Source: a virus
Reading direction: 5' to 3' (one strand)
DNA length: 64,000 nucleotides
IMG/VR virus record: IMGVR_UViG_3300003324_000863
Coordinates: 745 to 64,744 of that record
The notes under the pieces were generated by a model. It worked only from the letters and a program-made list of their open reading frames with translations. It did not search any database and had not been told where the DNA came from. The position numbers and the translations under genes are program-made. Within the stretch, counting starts at the first letter, position 1. Each line of letters opens with the position of its first letter. Below are positions 186-62,680 of the stretch, piece after piece.

Positions 186-212
186 TTCTCCCTCCCTTCG
201 GTTGTCTCTCGG

Positions 213-286
213 TTCCAGGGGGTGGACTCGAACCACCAACCTCGCACGTTCAGAGCGTGGTGTTCTACCAATTGAACTACCCTGGA
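213..286 (-). tRNA. tRNA-Gln (anticodon CTG)
   Basis: Cloverleaf read on the minus strand: acceptor TCCAGGG pairs with CCCTGGA, D-stem GTTC/GAAC, anticodon loop CTCTGAA (anticodon CTG, reading CAG), T-stem GGTGG/CCACC with loop TTCGAGT. The CCA end is not encoded. The top anticodon-stem pair is a C-C mismatch and the variable loop is about 6 nt, both mild oddities. It is the only tRNA I found. Phage tRNAs often compensate for codon use or resist host tRNA damage; nothing here separates these. Confidence 0.88.
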
Positions 287-5588: not shown

Positions 5589-5618
5589 ATTGTCGCACGA
5601 TCGAGCGGCGGCCGTCAA
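5589..5618 (-). promoter_or_regulatory. Sigma70-type promoter, copy 1
   Basis: On the minus strand: TTGACG, 18 bp, GACAAT. The spacer GCCGCCGCTCGATCGTGC is nearly identical to that of the second copy at 7014-7043. It sits 55 bp upstream of the ATG at 5534, and its flank (CCATC before the -35) is also shared with copy 2. Confidence 0.7.
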
Positions 5619-5634
5619 GATGGGGAACGCGGGT

Positions 5635-7013: not shown

Positions 7014-7043
7014 ATTGTCGCACGGCCGAGCGGCGGCCGTCAA
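7014..7043 (-). promoter_or_regulatory. Sigma70-type promoter, copy 2
   Basis: Minus strand TTGACG, 18 bp (GCCGCCGCTCGGCCGTGC), GACAAT. Compared with the copy at 5589-5618, the spacer differs at only two positions. It drives the 6923 gene and those below. A half-symmetric TTTAGCCGCTTAAC (7072-7085) lies just upstream and belongs to the operator-like family. Confidence 0.7.
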
Positions 7044-7121
7044 GATGGTCTCGCGTCCCATCACCTCCGACTTTAGCCGCTTAACTATGGCTGCACCCCA
7101 AGGCCGAGGCTGAGTCTTTGT

Positions 7122-7268
7122 CTAGGCGGTCTCGGCCCAACACGAGCGGATGTAGGCGCGAAAGTACACCAGGTCTCCCGTGCTCTGCCAGAGTCTTGCC
7201 CAGTCTTGGGACTTCATCGTGGGCCAGACGGCGTGCCAGAGGATCATGGTGAGGTCGACGAAGTCCAT
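7122..7268 (-). CDS. Small hypothetical protein
   Basis: 48 residues from ATG 7266-7268 (MDFVDLTMILWHAVWPTMKS), with CGGAGG upstream; the longer reading lacks a ribosome site. Trp-rich and amphipathic. Contains two of the clustered GTCTTG motifs (plus strand), read in two different frames. TAG is followed on the minus strand by ACAAAGACTC and a GC-rich stretch similar to 54408-54445. Confidence 0.6.
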   Translation of the reverse strand: MDFVDLTMILWHAVWPTMKSQDWARLWQSTGDLVYFRAYIRSCWAETA

Positions 7269-7270
7269 GG

Positions 7271-7423
7271 TCAGCCTCCGATCTGGTCTTGCCAGTATGC
7301 CGCGGCCGTCTTGGCGTGGCGGTAGACCATCCATGCCCCAGGACAGCCGGTCTTGAGGAACTCCTGCCAGAAGCGATCGGCCCGTCTCAGGCAGGCCTCC
7401 CGCTGCGTCTCGGCGTAGCTCAT
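7271..7423 (-). CDS. Small hypothetical protein
   Basis: 50 residues from ATG 7421-7423 (MSYAETQREACLRRADRFWQ) with GAGGGA upstream; helical. Overlaps the 7420-7602 gene by ATGA. Three repeats of the GTCTTG cluster lie inside, as KT and QD codons. Function unknown. Confidence 0.6.
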   Translation of the reverse strand: MSYAETQREACLRRADRFWQEFLKTGCPGAWMVYRHAKTAAAYWQDQIGG

Positions 7424-7602
7424 GGTCGATCCCTCACGATCGGTTCGTGGAAATGGTGCGGTCTTGCGACGGAGATCACCCGCCGATTCTTTCCGTGCAG
7501 GCTCAAGGATCGGCTCTTGGTTTGCCTCTTGGGGCAGTCTGGGTTGGGGCATGGGTCTCGCTGGTCTCCCCGTGGGCAGCGGCAGGCACGGCAGGTAACC
7601 AT
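7420..7602 (-). CDS. Small Cys-rich (zinc-finger-like) protein
   Basis: 60 residues, starting MVTCRACRCPRGDQRDPCPN. C-x2-C-x-C, then C and C within the next ten residues, suggest a small zinc knuckle, followed by a basic tail. Ends in an ATGA overlap with the next gene, which supports it. Function unknown. Confidence 0.55.
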   Translation of the reverse strand: MVTCRACRCPRGDQRDPCPNPDCPKRQTKSRSLSLHGKNRRVISVARPHHFHEPIVRDRP

Positions 7603-7623
7603 CGCTCATCCTCCGAAGATAAA

Positions 7624-7661
7624 GCAAGACCAGGGACCGATTGTCTCAGCCCCTGGTCTTG
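7624..7661 (-). terminator. Stem-loop built from two inverted GGTCTTG copies
   Basis: CAAGACCAGGG ... CCCTGGTCTTG form an 11-bp stem around a 15-16 nt loop. On the minus strand the stem is followed by CTTTATC, so it may be a terminator after the 7689-7991 gene. It is also the only place in the cluster where the repeat word is inverted. Confidence 0.5.
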
Positions 7662-7688
7662 GGTCTATTCGATTGGCGCGGTCTTGGG

Positions 7689-7991
7689 CTAGGCCACCAG
7701 GTACAAGCTGGCGATGGTCTTGATGGTCTCGAACCCGGCGTACTCCTCCACCTCGAAGGCCGTCCCCTCAGGCAGCCACGTAATGGCCAACGTATCCTCC
7801 CCGAGGTAGCAGAAGTGCTCGTCCATCCCTAGCACGAAGGGGCAGGGGCCAACCTTTCCACCCTCAACCCACTCGACGGTCTTGGGATCGAACAGGCACT
7901 CGGGGTGGTCTTGGTTCCAGGTATACCAACCCGCGCCGTAGCCGGGTGAGTACAGCACCGCCACCTTCCCGTCTCGGATCACCTTCTCCAT
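7689..7991 (-). CDS. Conserved phage/viral hypothetical protein
   Basis: 100 residues from ATG 7989-7991 (MEKVIRDGKVAVLYSPGYGA). The opening VAVLYSPGYGAGWYTWN and LFDPKTVEWVE resemble a small protein I recall from several phages and large viruses, with no known function. The rest (TLAITWLPEGTAFEVEEYAG) looks like a small beta protein that could pack onto itself. Longer readings would overlap the next gene. Confidence 0.72.
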   Translation of the reverse strand: MEKVIRDGKVAVLYSPGYGAGWYTWNQDHPECLFDPKTVEWVEGGKVGPCPFVLGMDEHFCYLGEDTLAITWLPEGTAFEVEEYAGFETIKTIASLYLVA

Positions 7992-8076
7992 CGGTCTATC
8001 CTCCGTCTTGCTATGGGCTAGGCCCACGCTTAGAAGGCCGAAGGCACGGACACCTTGGGCCCTCTCTAGCGTGGTC

Positions 8077-8331
8077 TTAGCTGGCCAGTGCCACCGCTTC
8101 GGTCTTGCCCACCGCGTCGAAGTCCCGCGCCAGGATGGTCTCAAGCTCATCAGCGGTCTTGCCCGTGGCGCGGCAAATGTCGGTCTTGGGCAGCCGCGAG
8201 GTCTTGGCGAACATCTTGGCGCACCAGTCTTCCAAGTCCTGCAAGGATGGGTCTGCCTTGGCGCGACGCTCTTGGGCTCGGGCAATGGTGCGGGCCTTAA
8301 GCGGCTTGTTGTGGCGCGCGGTCCTTGACAT
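8077..8331 (-). CDS. Small basic hypothetical protein
   Basis: 84 residues from ATG 8329-8331 (MSRTARHNKPLKARTIARAQ), with GGGAG upstream. Basic N-terminus, then a helical segment with four Lys-Thr pairs (AKTSRLPKT, GKTADEL, GKTEA), each encoded by a copy of the CAAGACC word. The RATGKTADELETILAR stretch recalls an HTH. Possibly DNA-binding, not proven. Confidence 0.62.
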   Translation of the reverse strand: MSRTARHNKPLKARTIARAQERRAKADPSLQDLEDWCAKMFAKTSRLPKTDICRATGKTADELETILARDFDAVGKTEAVALAS

Positions 8332-9740: not shown

Positions 9741-10152
9741 GTCCAAACCTCCCACGTCGGCGTCCGTTGCTCGGTCGCCAGATGGGGAAATCATCGTGTA
9801 TACACGGCCGAGAATCAATACCCGAAACGGACCAATTTGACTCGGATTCTGTGTGCGTCAAAAAAGTGACACGTCGGAAAAGTGACATACGTAGGCACGA
9901 ATCGGCGATTCTGTAACAAAATCGCCTCGTGTTACTGCACAAAAATTGTTGATCAACAATCCCGACAATCGGCCGCCCAGTGGCCCCCGATGTGTCAGTA
10001 GCGGGGCATATCGCCAGAAACCGACACGTCAAAAAAGTGACACATCGCCGCGCAGCGCGGAGCTCCCACGGCCCCGCAGAGGCAGCGCCAGCCCGTCGGA
10101 AACGTAGGGCGGGGCAGCGCTGGGGACACCCCCCCTCCGATTTTTCTGCCCC
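9741..10152. other. Non-coding control region with AT-rich repeats
   Basis: No convincing gene. It contains two adjacent and one distant 16-bp repeats (9856-9871, 9872-9887, 10027-10042), a perfect 16-bp palindrome ATTGTTGATCAACAAT (9945-9960), and an inverted repeat GGCGAT ... ATCGCC (9904-9926). This AT-rich patch stands out in a GC-rich genome. It probably drives the minus-strand block below 9740 and could be a replication origin or master operator. Confidence 0.6.
9856..10042 (-). repeat. Three 16-bp iteron-like direct repeats
   Basis: On the minus strand: TGTCACTTTTTTGACG (10027-10042), TGTCACTTTTCCGACG (9872-9887) and TGTCACTTTTTTGACG (9856-9871). The last two abut. The T-rich core with a TTGACG end could also act as a -35 element. 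Between them sits the ATTGTTGATCAACAAT palindrome. Confidence 0.7.
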
Positions 10153-10512
10153 TCAATTTTGGGCTCGAACCTTTCCTGACCGCTTCCTGACCGATGCTTC
10201 CGGCCTTCCCAGAATCCGCTGCACGATCTGACGCGGCATCTCCGGGTGCTCCTCGAGGAACCGCAGCTCGGTGGGCGTCCAGGGGCGGCCGGAGTTCCGC
10301 GCGGTTCGGTGGTCGGAGAGCGGCCGCGTGAGGTTCAGGTGGGTCCAGGTCTTTCGGACGGCAATGTCGTGGATCGTCACTGGGGACACCCCGAACTCCG
10401 CCGCGATCTCCCGCTCCGTCTTCTCAGCGACCAGGAGCGCCCAGACCTGCCGGACCTTCTCCTCGGTCAGCCTGGCCCGGCCGTTCTGCGCCCCGACCCG
10501 TTCCATACTCAT
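10153..10512 (-). CDS. Helix-turn-helix DNA-binding protein
   Basis: 119 residues from ATG 10510-10512 (MSMERVGAQNGRARLTEEKV), with GGGAGGGA upstream. First motif: EKTEREIAAEFGVSPVTIHD, a clear HTH of the resolvase/homing-nuclease accessory type. Second: WTPTELRFLEEHPEMPRQIV with ILGRPEASVRKR, Myb/SANT-like. No nuclease residues seen. Next to the repeat-bearing gap at 9741-10152, it is a candidate binder of those repeats (inference). Confidence 0.72.
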   Translation of the reverse strand: MSMERVGAQNGRARLTEEKVRQVWALLVAEKTEREIAAEFGVSPVTIHDIAVRKTWTHLNLTRPLSDHRTARNSGRPWTPTELRFLEEHPEMPRQIVQRILGRPEASVRKRSGKVRAQN

Positions 10513-11521: not shown

Positions 11522-11547
11522 CGGTAGTCCTCCTCTCCAGTTGACCC

Positions 11548-11576
11548 AGTATACAGGCCGCACCTGCCCAGACAAA
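11548..11576 (-). promoter_or_regulatory. Promoter TTTGTC-17-TATACT preceded by a stem-loop
   Basis: Minus strand TTTGTC (11571-11576), 17 bp, TATACT (11548-11553), 27 bp before the ATG at 11521. Just upstream, GGACCGAGGGCGCAGTCC (11577-11594) forms a stem-loop whose sequence, with the CTTTGTCT tail, matches the one after the plus-strand promoter at 23085. The rest of 11595-11692 holds no gene I can support. Confidence 0.55.
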
Positions 11577-11692
11577 GGACTGCGCCCTCGGTCCTCTGGT
11601 GTCGCCTTACGTCAAGTAGAACCATAACAACTCCTCCGTTTTCCTGCATACTTCCTCACCGTTTCACCATGTATAATCTGGTCAAATTTTGG

Positions 11693-12889
11693 CTAACTCC
11701 CCAAACCCGGGCCAATCCGTGCCTGGAGTCCTTCATCTTCCGAACGATCTGACCCAGTACCCGACCCACTATCTGACCCAGTATCCTGACCCAGCATTCG
11801 GTTCATCGACTCCGCGACGCGCTGCCGGCTCTCGTCGTACCAGTGACCATACAGGTTCGCCGTGAGCCCGATGTTCGAGTGCCCCAGCGTCCGTGCCACA
11901 TCATTCAAGGATAGCCCCGAGGCCAGGAGAAGGGACGCCGCCAGGTGTCTCAGGCCATGGAAGGTCTGCCTGGGGAGCCCCGCCTTCCTGAGGATGTGCT
12001 GCATGTGCTTGGTCATCATCGCGGGGTGGATCGGCTTCCCCCGACGCACCCCACGGAAGAGCAGCTCGTCCTCCGACTCGGGGTGCCGCTTCTCCTTCAG
12101 CTTTACCAGCAGATCCCAGGTGAGCTTCGGGAGTCCCACGACGCGCCGGCTCCTCCGGGTCTTGGCATACTCCTTGACGACGAACTCCTTGTCGATCAGG
12201 TGCATCGTCCGGTTCACGGAGACGGTCCCCTTCTCCAGATCAATGTCCCGCCAGGTGAGAGCCCGCGCCTCCGCGGAGCGTAGCCCACAGGTCGCAGCGA
12301 TCACGTAGCACAAGCCCAGCCAGTCGTCTTGGATCACGGCAAGGAACTTCCGTGCCTCCTCAGGCGTCAGGGGCTTCATCTCCTTTCCCTTGACCTGGGG
12401 CGCCTCTGCCAGCTTCGCCACGTTCCGGGTCACCACGCCCCACTTCAGCGCGTGGTTCAGGGCCATCCGCAGGACCGCGCGGTGCTGGCCGATGGTCGAC
12501 TTCGCCAGGCCCCACTCGAGCTTCTTGGCAATGTAGGTCTCGACGTGGAGGGGCGTCAGCGCCCGGAGCCGGTACGCACCCAGCCCCGGGATGAGGTGGT
12601 GGGTCACGATGCTGGAGAAGGTCTGGTAGGAGTTCGCCTCGACATGGTTCTTCCGAAGGGCGAGCCAGTCCGTGAGGAAGTCGGCCAGGGTCGGGTCTTC
12701 ACTCAGCTCGCCCTGCAGCTCGGTCGGCGGCGTTCCCGTCCCCGCCCGCAGCAGCTCGATGGCCTGGTGGGCCTCCGATTCCGTCCGCCCGTAGACCGAG
12801 TGGAGGGTACCCCCGATCGTGATCCGACCTTCATACCGCCCATCCGGCCGGAGGCGAACGCTCCCTGTGCCCTTAGCCCTCCTGGCCAT
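11693..12889 (-). CDS. int: Tyrosine integrase
   Basis: 398 residues. An N-terminal AP2-like segment (RLRPDGRYEGRITIGGTLHS) and SAM-like core-binding helices precede the catalytic domain. Catalytic residues fit the family: Arg in GLRSAEARALTW, Lys in the beta hairpin KTRRSRRVV, HGLRH, and His in LGHSN with the nucleophile Tyr in LTANLYGHW. It would splice the phage into a host site. The C-terminus is extended by a Gly/Ser/Asp repeat (GSDSGSGTGSD). Its start lies 17 nt inside the DGQHR gene upstream, so they are probably co-translated. The att site is not identified. Confidence 0.93.
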   Translation of the reverse strand: MARRAKGTGSVRLRPDGRYEGRITIGGTLHSVYGRTESEAHQAIELLRAGTGTPPTELQGELSEDPTLADFLTDWLALRKNHVEANSYQTFSSIVTHHLIPGLGAYRLRALTPLHVETYIAKKLEWGLAKSTIGQHRAVLRMALNHALKWGVVTRNVAKLAEAPQVKGKEMKPLTPEEARKFLAVIQDDWLGLCYVIAATCGLRSAEARALTWRDIDLEKGTVSVNRTMHLIDKEFVVKEYAKTRRSRRVVGLPKLTWDLLVKLKEKRHPESEDELLFRGVRRGKPIHPAMMTKHMQHILRKAGLPRQTFHGLRHLAASLLLASGLSLNDVARTLGHSNIGLTANLYGHWYDESRQRVAESMNRMLGQDTGSDSGSGTGSDRSEDEGLQARIGPGLGS

Positions 12890-14306
12890 CGCCCTGCTGC
12901 CAGCGCTCCCGATCCTTCTGGATGATGTCGAAGACCGGCGATCGCTCCTCTTCAGGTGGTGCTGTTTCGGTCTCTGTGATCTGATTCACATTCACCTTGA
13001 GGAACTCGGGCCGGTTGGCGAACCACATCTTCAGGTAGTCCACCGCCCGCTGGAGGTCCTGCCGCCGGCCCATGGGCGCCGATGCCCCGACCTCGAACGC
13101 GCCGGTCTTCATCCAGATCGAGTCCTCGGTGATCGGGACCGCGGTGTGCTGGGCGATGGCGCCGAAGAACTCCCGAATGTCCTCCGCACTCGCGTCATCC
13201 TTGACCTCGTGGTAGAAGCCCGCCAGGACCCGCAGGAATGCCGTACTCCCGAGGAGGCTCGTCGTCCGGAGGTACTGAGGGCTGATGTCCTTGGTCAGCA
13301 TCTTCTCCACATCAGGGAAGGCCTTGAACAGGATCGTCAGGAACTGCTTCGTCGTGTCGGCCAGCTCCCGGTCCTTGTGACTTCGCTCCGCCTCCCGCTC
13401 CATGGCCCGGCCCACGCGGCCAGAGATCCCCACCTCGATGTCCCGCGTCAGGTCCGCGATGTGCTTGGCGCTGATCCAGTACGGGCTCTTCCCCGTGGTC
13501 CGGTCCCGCGCCAGGTCGACGACGTCCTTCAGGGCCGGCATCTCGAGCACGTAGTCCGTGGCACGGTTCACCACCTTGCGCCGGTCGAAGAGGACCCGCA
13601 GCGTGGCCCCCACCCCGAGCTGGGTATCGTTGATATCGACGAACATCTGCTCGTAGACCCGTTTGTCGTCCGTTACGTGAATTTGGATGCTTATCCGCTC
13701 GTTGAAGAACCGCCGCCGCTCGGCCTCCAGGTCCCGCAGCTGCTTCTCGAAGTGGGCCACGAGGCCATGGTTCTCATCTCGCTTCGCTGCGGCGAGGGAG
13801 CTCCGAGTGTCGTCGATCTTCTTGTTGAGCTCCCGGTAGGCAACGTGCAGGCCCTTGACCCGGTGCTGCCCGTCCAGGATGTGCAGGTCCCCCCGCGCGT
13901 CGCGAGGAATAGAGAGCACCCCGAACTGGCTCCCCCCGATTTCCTCATGCGCCTCGAAGTGGAATCGATCCCCAGGAGCCCGCAGAAGCAAGGCCCCCGA
14001 GACCCAGTCCTCATTCCCCCGCACGTAGTCTCCGAAGCCCTTGGCATGTGGGACGTTCAGGGGGCGCTGCCCTGTGTCAACCGTCTCCGACTCAGGCTCC
14101 GGAAGCGATGCAACGATCGCTGCGAGGCTGAGATCGATCGAGTAGACCGTCCGCTTTCCCTGGTGATACCGGGTTGCGAAGTAGCGGTCTGCCGTGTCGT
14201 ACCCCGTGAGGGCCACGTTCTCCCCCGAAGGTAAGACCACCTCTGCCCCCTGATCCTGTTCTTCGGCCCGCCGACGCCGCGGCCGGGCCTTCGCTGGCTC
14301 GCTCAT
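12873..14306 (-). CDS. DGQHR-domain (DndB-like) protein
   Basis: 477 residues. DLHILDGQHRVKGLHVAYRE carries the DGQHR signature shared with DndB and ParB-like proteins; DndB represses the DNA phosphorothioation genes in bacteria. A coiled coil follows (NKKIDDTRSSLAAAKRDENH) and then QMFVDINDTQLGVGATLRVL, also typical of the family. A basic N-terminal stretch (ARPRRRRAEEQ) may bind DNA. No dndC/D/E genes are nearby, so a role in regulation, host interaction or integration control is inference. Expressed from the 14338-14376 region and overlapping the integrase. Confidence 0.82.
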   Translation of the reverse strand: MSEPAKARPRRRRAEEQDQGAEVVLPSGENVALTGYDTADRYFATRYHQGKRTVYSIDLSLAAIVASLPEPESETVDTGQRPLNVPHAKGFGDYVRGNEDWVSGALLLRAPGDRFHFEAHEEIGGSQFGVLSIPRDARGDLHILDGQHRVKGLHVAYRELNKKIDDTRSSLAAAKRDENHGLVAHFEKQLRDLEAERRRFFNERISIQIHVTDDKRVYEQMFVDINDTQLGVGATLRVLFDRRKVVNRATDYVLEMPALKDVVDLARDRTTGKSPYWISAKHIADLTRDIEVGISGRVGRAMEREAERSHKDRELADTTKQFLTILFKAFPDVEKMLTKDISPQYLRTTSLLGSTAFLRVLAGFYHEVKDDASAEDIREFFGAIAQHTAVPITEDSIWMKTGAFEVGASAPMGRRQDLQRAVDYLKMWFANRPEFLKVNVNQITETETAPPEEERSPVFDIIQKDRERWQQGDGQEG

Positions 14307-33473: not shown

Positions 33474-33703
33474 AAGCAGTCGAGGAGCTTCTCGGCCGCC
33501 GCCCGGTACGCCAGGTCCACTGTCTCCTCGACCGAGAGGTCCAGGGCCCGGACCAGGTCCACCGTTGTGTGAATCGTGGGCCGCCGTCTCCCCGCTTCCA
33601 GCTCCCGGACCAGGGACTCGGAGACCGACGCGGCAACGGCGAGGTCCGCCTGCCCCCACTTCCTGGCCTTCCGTAGCTCCCTCATCTTGCGGCCAAAGCG
33701 CAC
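33470..33703 (-). CDS. XRE-family HTH regulator
   Basis: 77 residues from GTG 33701-33703, with GGAGGTGATC upstream. Cro/C1-type HTH: WGQADLAVAASVSESLVREL followed by EAGRRRPTIHTTVDLVRAL. The stop overlaps the plus-strand gene's stop (CTAG). A candidate repressor for the TTAAGC palindromes, though its location among structural genes is unusual; no direct evidence. Confidence 0.82.
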   Translation of the reverse strand: MRFGRKMRELRKARKWGQADLAVAASVSESLVRELEAGRRRPTIHTTVDLVRALDLSVEETVDLAYRAAAEKLLDCF

Positions 33704-34440
33704 TCGATCACCTCCTGGCAGAGATCGCTGGCCCGCTTGTAGTCCGGTTCCCCGGGGAGCGGTGAGCAGATGTACGCTTCCTTCAGGGCATCGAGGAGTC
33801 GTTCCGCTTCCGCGAACGCCCGCTCCTCGTCCCATTTCCCAGCCCGGATATCTCTCAACTCCTCCGCGTCTGCATGTCGGAAGACCTGGAGTTCCCCGTC
33901 GGTGAGGAACTCGACCCCCATCCGCAGGACTCGGATCGCGTGCATCATGTCCTTCCATGGGAACGGGGGCCAGGTGTCGTATCCACCACACGGAGGACAC
34001 GGGGCCTCTGCGCAACACCGATCGCAGCGCTGGAATGGCCGGTTCTTCATCCGCCGCAGGTGCCCGGTGGCCATGTCCTTGAACGCGCCGTAGACGTGCC
34101 GGCCCACGAAGACGTCCCGGTTCTTCCGGAGGAGATCCCCGGCATCCGTAGTCCGCACCGCGTACATCGGGACCCAGAGTACCTCGAGCACCGATGGGTT
34201 CCCTTTAAGCGCTAAACTGAAGAACTTCCGGCACTCATACACGACGATGTCGAACTCGCCCTCCTTGATCTCCTTTGTCCCTTCAGCTCCGTACCGCTCC
34301 AGCCCCGCGTAGTGCGAGAGGGGCGGCACGCAGATGGACAGAACGTCGAAGTCACTCGTCTCCGTCGCCAGGTTGTACGCCCGGCTCCCGCGTGGGCAGG
34401 AATAGATAGACCACTCTCCGAACCCCGGATCGTCGATCAT
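33682..34440 (-). CDS. RlaP-like nucleotidyltransferase
   Basis: 252 residues from ATG 34438-34440, with GGAGGGG upstream. CPRGSRAYNLATETSDFDVL is the GSRxYxLAT..SDxD motif of the RlaP branch of DNA polymerase beta-type nucleotidyltransferases, found in phages with RNA repair systems; EFDIVVYECRKFFSLALKGN is also typical. A Cys-rich insert (CDRCCAEAPCPPCGGYD) may bind zinc. No RNA ligase is nearby, so the partner and substrate are unknown. Confidence 0.85.
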   Translation of the reverse strand: MIDDPGFGEWSIYSCPRGSRAYNLATETSDFDVLSICVPPLSHYAGLERYGAEGTKEIKEGEFDIVVYECRKFFSLALKGNPSVLEVLWVPMYAVRTTDAGDLLRKNRDVFVGRHVYGAFKDMATGHLRRMKNRPFQRCDRCCAEAPCPPCGGYDTWPPFPWKDMMHAIRVLRMGVEFLTDGELQVFRHADAEELRDIRAGKWDEERAFAEAERLLDALKEAYICSPLPGEPDYKRASDLCQEVIECALAAR

Positions 34441-62452: not shown

Positions 62453-62680
62453 CTAGAGTCCTGGTCTTGGGGTGATCCGCACCCTCGGTCTCTCCTCCTC
62501 GACCCGCATGGTCTCCCGGAAGTAGGAGATCAAGAGCCCCCGGACGAACTCACTCCTGGTCTGGCCGTACTCGTACCGTAGCTCGTCGATCCGCTTGAGC
62601 ACCGAGGCGGGCAGCCGGAACGTGATTCGCTGGTCCTGCTTCACTACCCGGTACCGCTTGTTCACCTTCGCCGTGGTCAT
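62453..62680 (-). CDS. Ribbon-helix-helix regulator
   Basis: 75 residues (MTTAKVNKRYRVVKQDQRIT). QRITFRLPASVLKRIDELRY followed by GQTRSEFVRGLLISYF is a CopG/Arc-type RHH fold; basic N-terminus. A candidate autoregulator or another binder of the operator-like sites. Confidence 0.8.
   Translation of the reverse strand: MTTAKVNKRYRVVKQDQRITFRLPASVLKRIDELRYEYGQTRSEFVRGLLISYFRETMRVEEERPRVRITPRPGL

Follow-up and report, generated by a model that had tools for sequence, protein, structure and literature searches.

Results

A cluster of one-way words across five small genes

The window, by which we mean the whole 64,000-nt stretch of DNA analysed, is a portion of a 66,169-base record of an unclassified virus of bacteria. 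Genes in this part of the window lie almost all on the minus strand, and five tiny ones, here called A to E, are packed into 1.2 kb (Table 1). The gene calls are our own, and gene C, which is absent from the gene call, was added by hand; its third-position GC is 0.69, compared with 0.81-0.88 for genes A, B, D and E. For gene A no relatives were found in the searches made. Gene B has relatives at 53 loci in viral_contigs and in 14 phage records, 12 of them from Vibrio phages, and the family shares a near-invariant start, MEKVIRDG; no family match was obtained in PHROGs (where it was scanned as a longer ORF) or in Pfam.

Across this cassette the hexamer GTCTTG occurs 16 times on the plus strand between 7193 and 8206, 12 times as GGTCTTG, and our recount gave the same numbers as the preliminary description of this DNA. 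In the sense of the genes (minus strand) the word reads CAAGAC(C). GGTCTTG is found on the minus strand of the region a single time, and 16 of the 17 copies are in the sense strand. When frames were read from the translations, eight copies encoded Lys-Thr, three Gln-Asp and two Ala-Arg, and the other three fell in the gaps at 7603-7688 and 7992-8076 (173 non-coding bases together), in agreement with the earlier remark that the word is read in all frames and also fills two gaps. Coverage is even over the five genes, in coding and non-coding sequence alike, with irregular spacing (CV 0.80) and no helical phasing at the tested periods of 6 to 21 bases; a pentamer or hexamer period was considered for these copies and rejected, since they have no period. 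Elsewhere the word is sparse, as had been noted before, with 25 copies on the plus and 7 on the minus strand of the remaining window.

Table 1. Positions of the array, its word copies and neighbouring features in the window.
Feature	Position	Strand	Remarks
tRNA-Gln(CTG)	211-286	-	
Promoter-like 35-nt element	7014-7048	-	just downstream of array; 94% identical to 5589-5623
Whole array	7122-8331	-	genes A-E and two gaps; CAAGACC-like words on minus strand
Gene E	7122-7268	-	48 aa
GTCTTG copy 1 (AGTCTTG)	7193-7198	+	gene E, Ala-Arg frame
GTCTTG copy 2 (AGTCTTG)	7203-7208	+	gene E, Gln-Asp frame
Gene D	7271-7423	-	50 aa
GGTCTTG copy 3	7285-7291	+	gene D, Gln-Asp frame
GTCTTG copy 4 (CGTCTTG)	7308-7313	+	gene D, Lys-Thr frame
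GGTCTTG copy 5	7349-7355	+	gene D, Lys-Thr frame
Gene C	7420-7602	-	60-aa ORF with Shine-Dalgarno; weaker coding signal
GGTCTTG copy 6	7460-7466	+	gene C, Ala-Arg frame
Terminator-like hairpin	7625-7661	-	16 pairs, 5-nt loop, tail CTTTATCTTC
Sole inverted copy (GGTCTTG on minus)	7625-7631	-	3' arm of hairpin
GGTCTTG copy 7	7655-7661	+	gap; 5' arm of terminator-like hairpin
GGTCTTG copy 8	7680-7686	+	gap, right after gene B stop
Gene B	7689-7991	-	100 aa; widespread small phage protein MEKVIRDGKVAVLYSPG...
GGTCTTG copy 9	7716-7722	+	gene B, Lys-Thr frame
GGTCTTG copy 10	7878-7884	+	gene B, Lys-Thr frame; Thr vs V/I/L/M in 31 aligned relatives
GGTCTTG copy 11	7907-7913	+	gene B, Gln-Asp frame; QD common to some relatives
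GTCTTG copy 12 (CGTCTTG)	8005-8010	+	gap, adjoins gene B Shine-Dalgarno
Gene A	8077-8331	-	84 aa
GGTCTTG copy 13	8101-8107	+	gene A, Lys-Thr frame
GGTCTTG copy 14	8155-8161	+	gene A, Lys-Thr frame
GGTCTTG copy 15	8182-8188	+	gene A, Lys-Thr frame
GGTCTTG copy 16	8200-8206	+	gene A, Lys-Thr frame
Candidate binder	10153-10512	-	119 aa; HTH and weaker second helical domain

Elements within and near the array

The inverted copy and one sense copy pair in a hairpin, and the 101 nt around it fold at z -3.2. A stem had been predicted here with 11 bp; it does exist, with 16 pairs rather than 11, and is terminator-like given its 5-nt loop and T-rich tail. As in an intrinsic terminator, a GC-rich stem-loop is followed by a T run, here an interrupted one. 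The promoter-like element beyond gene E is one of a pair on the minus strand (5589-5623 and 7014-7048), each of the form TTGACG-18-GACAAT.

Several other features of the window were recorded. An AT-rich intergenic segment at 9820-10050 contains AAGTGACA/ACGTC repeats and the perfect 16-bp palindrome ATTGTTGATCAACAAT, and looks like an operator or control region. Four copies of TGACCCAG lie in the 500 bases that start at 11542 (11542-12041), around the integrase gene's 3' end, and these repeats are possibly arm-type integrase sites. The integrase gene is adjoined by a gene for a protein with a DndB-like domain (12873-14306, minus strand; PF14072, 2.3e-26), and an RlaP-like nucleotidyltransferase is encoded at 33682-34440 (minus strand; PF10127, 1.2e-25). 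The head genes between 14895 and 33473 have an unusual mixed-strand order, with a terminase small-subunit-like gene on the plus strand (14.9 kb), the terminase large subunit and portal genes on the minus strand and a protease-like gene on the plus strand.

The word is enriched beyond proteins and codon usage

When clusters of all 6-8-mers of the window were scored at scan widths of 500, 1200 and 3000 bases, GTCTTG ranked first (log10 p -18.5); the next unrelated word, CCTGGA (log10 p -13.5), lies inside a 1791-aa gene. We then compared the genes with a null in which proteins are fixed and codons are redrawn from the rest of the genome, codon-pair bias being left out of the model. Genes A-E contain 13 CAAGAC, compared with 3.7 +- 1.4 expected, and 0 of 5000 draws reached 13; CAAGACC (10 against 1.9) and GAGACC (6 against 1.9) were likewise in excess under codon resampling with fixed proteins. 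All five genes show the excess, with observed and expected CAAGAC counts of 2 and 0.03 in E, 3 and 0.94 in D, 1 and 0.00 in C, 3 and 1.2 in B, and 4 and 1.6 in A. The Lys-Thr pairs show the same, since a C precedes AAG in 8 of 8 pairs in the array and in 24 of 59 elsewhere.

As the word had been picked after it was seen, we also redrew the whole window 860 times, with codons redrawn and non-coding bases shuffled, and kept for each run the score of its strongest 1200-base cluster, whichever hexamer formed it. The mean was -8.0 and the most extreme run, a homopolymer of G, reached -16.9, so that 0 of 860 runs equalled the observed -18.5. Only 7122-8331 has an excess over the codon null; in other blocks p ranges from 0.03 (57.6-64 kb, a weak hint) to 1. 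The equal density elsewhere that would have spoken against the array was not found. Pooled in an earlier test, the early genes that lie outside the array had 9 CAAGACC against 3.7 expected (1/300), and some weak spread of the word into other early genes may exist.

That protein sequence, codon habits or chance explain the array is strongly disfavoured and very improbable: eight copies do encode Lys-Thr, some words in gene B track residues common to relatives (the QD of WNQDHPE, and FETI) and about 3.7 coding copies are expected anyway, but both redraws, the C before AAG, and the copies in gaps and in two other frames go against it. The preliminary claim that protein selection cannot account for the word is therefore borne out by the coding copies, with proteins contributing a part only. 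The CAAGACC signal itself is secure, and the word is selected at the nucleotide level, over and above the proteins.

An alignment of gene B with 31 relatives, some of them near-identical to one another, is informative on this point. At the position of the Thr in DPKTVEW, encoded by the copy at 7879, each of the 31 has V, I, L or M, and at this one site the word seems to have displaced a conserved residue type. The Gln-Asp copy and the FETI stretch are common to some relatives and are accounted for by the protein.

A weak profile on one strand

The fitted profile, written in the sense of the genes, is SC(A/G)AGACC and carries about 9 bits in its 9 positions. At scores of at least 9 it matches the array 20 times on the minus and once on the plus strand, and the rest of the window 38 times on the minus and 20 times on the plus strand, counts that favour the array because the profile was fitted to it. 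Words with one mismatch are mostly absent from the array, with the exceptions of CGAGACC (3, with 0.28 expected), CAAGACG (2), CAAGACT (2), CAAGAGC (2) and TAAGACC (1). AGACC is in excess even where it is not part of CAAGAC (10, with 1.8 expected), which would fit recognition of a profile by a protein more readily than a fixed word; the core is slightly wider than the word GGTCTTG of the preliminary description. Single sites could not be specific, given the weak profile and the 38 minus-strand matches outside the array. Together with the even coverage and single orientation, the absence of a period and the small amount of information in each site suggest something that is read by its density along the strand.

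AGACC is also the sequence read by the type III restriction enzyme EcoP1I. A type III restriction site was considered as the cause and rejected, as it leaves the enrichment unexplained and GGTCT lies in both orientations elsewhere. No methyltransferase was found among the genes in the Pfam scans made.

Relatives of the region

A DNA search of 5-12 kb against phages gave no close relative, and scans that used proteins as queries (polymerase, terminase, portal and the products of the 183-aa and 463-aa genes) gave no or only distant relatives. The array is absent from MW202742 and MW202455, distant relatives that share early genes, and from 31 gene B loci, in which CAAGAC was counted and the longer of which were scanned for any clustered word. 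Since the gene B relatives are distant (39-56% identity, GC 0.27-0.49), its absence there does not refute the array. Pattern scans of viral_contigs for three copies gave, among the matches listed, tandem hexamer arrays, coding repeats and unrelated short repeats. Literature searches for the word and for the gene B peptide yielded nothing relevant, and a host search with the tRNA-Gln pattern gave no exact match in genome_contigs to a 34-base stretch.

Discussion

What may read the array

The reading that we prefer, with a probability of about one in three, is that the words are weak DNA sites, densely set and pointing one way, for a phage regulator, and would act as stoperators do. The regulator would assemble on the weak sites by virtue of their local density and, once assembled, would hinder or tune transcription through the five-gene early cassette. 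A repressed state is plausible because the virus has an integrase gene. Of the proposals in the preliminary description, an array bound by a phage protein appears the best. Our confidence in any function of the array is moderate to low.

Nearly as likely as a regulator bound to DNA is a role at the RNA level, in which CAAGACC in the early mRNA would be recognised by an RNA-binding protein of phage or host origin, or would pair with a small RNA that carries GGUCUUG, and would govern mRNA decay, translation or whether transcription stops at the internal hairpin. The strong bias to the sense strand fits this possibility, as does the hairpin, whose 5' arm begins with the word, so that RNA binding there would block it. 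The A-to-G change at position 2 seen in CGAGACC would also be tolerated by G-U pairing. Mildly against it, the copies are not extra accessible, with a mean unpaired value of 0.53 compared with 0.60 when flanks are shuffled; against the regional mean the values are 0.080 and 0.046, in a comparison that does not control for the A-richness of the word. Moreover, the leftward transcript has a single GGUCUUG in the neighbourhood of the array, and that one is sequestered in the hairpin; no RNA family was matched except a tRNA.

A role in replication, with sites for an initiator or a primase-helicase in an origin with short oriented repeats, we consider unlikely. The words are short and oriented and the region sits among leftward early genes, but their irregular, unphased spacing, their spread over coding sequence and an AT content of 0.35-0.41 throughout, with no AT-rich segment, do not favour an origin and speak against the iterons proposed earlier. 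The only nearby AT peak, with dyads and operator-like repeats, is at 9.8-10.05 kb. GC skew, suggested earlier as a check, shows no turn at the array, a result to be read knowing that the skew is strongly shaped by gene strand and is negative almost throughout the window because most genes are on the minus strand. A packaging signal, likewise proposed, finds no support, the terminase-like genes lying at 14.9-15.6 and 23.2-24.8 kb. Still less probable is a word of the host machinery, Chi-like or orienting a translocase, of which the virus would carry many copies. Chi and KOPS words are short, asymmetric and one-way, and by analogy the present word could be of that sort; such words are usually dispersed rather than packed into 1.2 kb, however, and there is little excess in the remaining window.

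For the DNA-bound regulator, the 119-aa HTH protein is a lead only as the binder of the array. It has weak matches to HTH families, and in tblastn it matches stretches annotated as phage HNH endonucleases. Its single-sequence model (mean pLDDT 63) predicts one fairly confident three-helix unit and a second, weaker one, and when the model was used in a structure search, nothing in the PDB matched at E <= 0.001. A second lead is the RHH protein at 62453-62680. It is also possible, although less likely than not, that the array is a new form of cassette marking, in which many weak one-way words are spread across coding and non-coding sequence and read by density, at the cost of a conserved residue type. 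If the array is functional, 7-base words written densely over protein-coding genes would be enough for a regulator to act through. Elements of this kind would escape annotation that seeks long or intergenic operators, and the codon-preserving cluster test applied here could find similar ones in other genomes.

Comparison with known arrays

Arrays in the viral contigs L006, L012, L070, L089 and L104 have many GGTCT- or GAC-rich words, as here; they are short-period tandem arrays with a strict period of 6 or 5 bases, whereas the copies in the window have none. Degenerate hexamer GGTCTN arrays between or within small genes are carried by many viral contigs with GC of 0.35-0.58, among them L006, L012, L089 and L104, and also L047 and L103. 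Translated in frame, such arrays yield runs of Ser-X, of which MITKRTKWRRGSGSQSGSRSRS in L006 is an example, and TCT is nearly constant, as if the nucleotide sequence were kept. Of similar style is a degenerate pentamer array, (NNGAC)n, that runs for about 400 bases in L070 (8060-8480).

Origins of phages and plasmids, such as the P4 ori, can have iterons or type I repeats, which are short direct repeats in one region. The array shares this arrangement and differs in lacking regular spacing and an AT-rich segment, and no initiator gene was identified adjoining it. The P1 pac hexamer cluster and the SeqA/GATC clusters are made of low-information words that become specific through local density. 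In this they resemble the array, whose word is, in contrast, asymmetric and one-way; none of the scanned genes was found to encode a methyltransferase.

The closest parallel to our preferred reading, sites for a DNA-bound regulator, is with the stoperators of Cluster A mycobacteriophages. Those of L5 and Bxb1 are asymmetric short sites of temperate phages, 20-30 per genome (PMC6550527; PMC9283540), and Cluster A stoperators point with transcription and are mostly not associated with promoters (PMC6550527). We do not claim that the array belongs to them, for stoperators are 13-bp sites of high information, compared with about 7-9 bp and a profile of about 9 bits over 9 positions here, and they are spread over the genome, whereas the array is packed in 1.2 kb. 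Unlike stoperators, the array also lies mostly inside coding sequence. Stoperators are bound by the immunity repressor of the phage, a part for which the HTH protein (10153-10512) is here only a candidate. What the two have in common are asymmetric short sites in one orientation relative to transcription.
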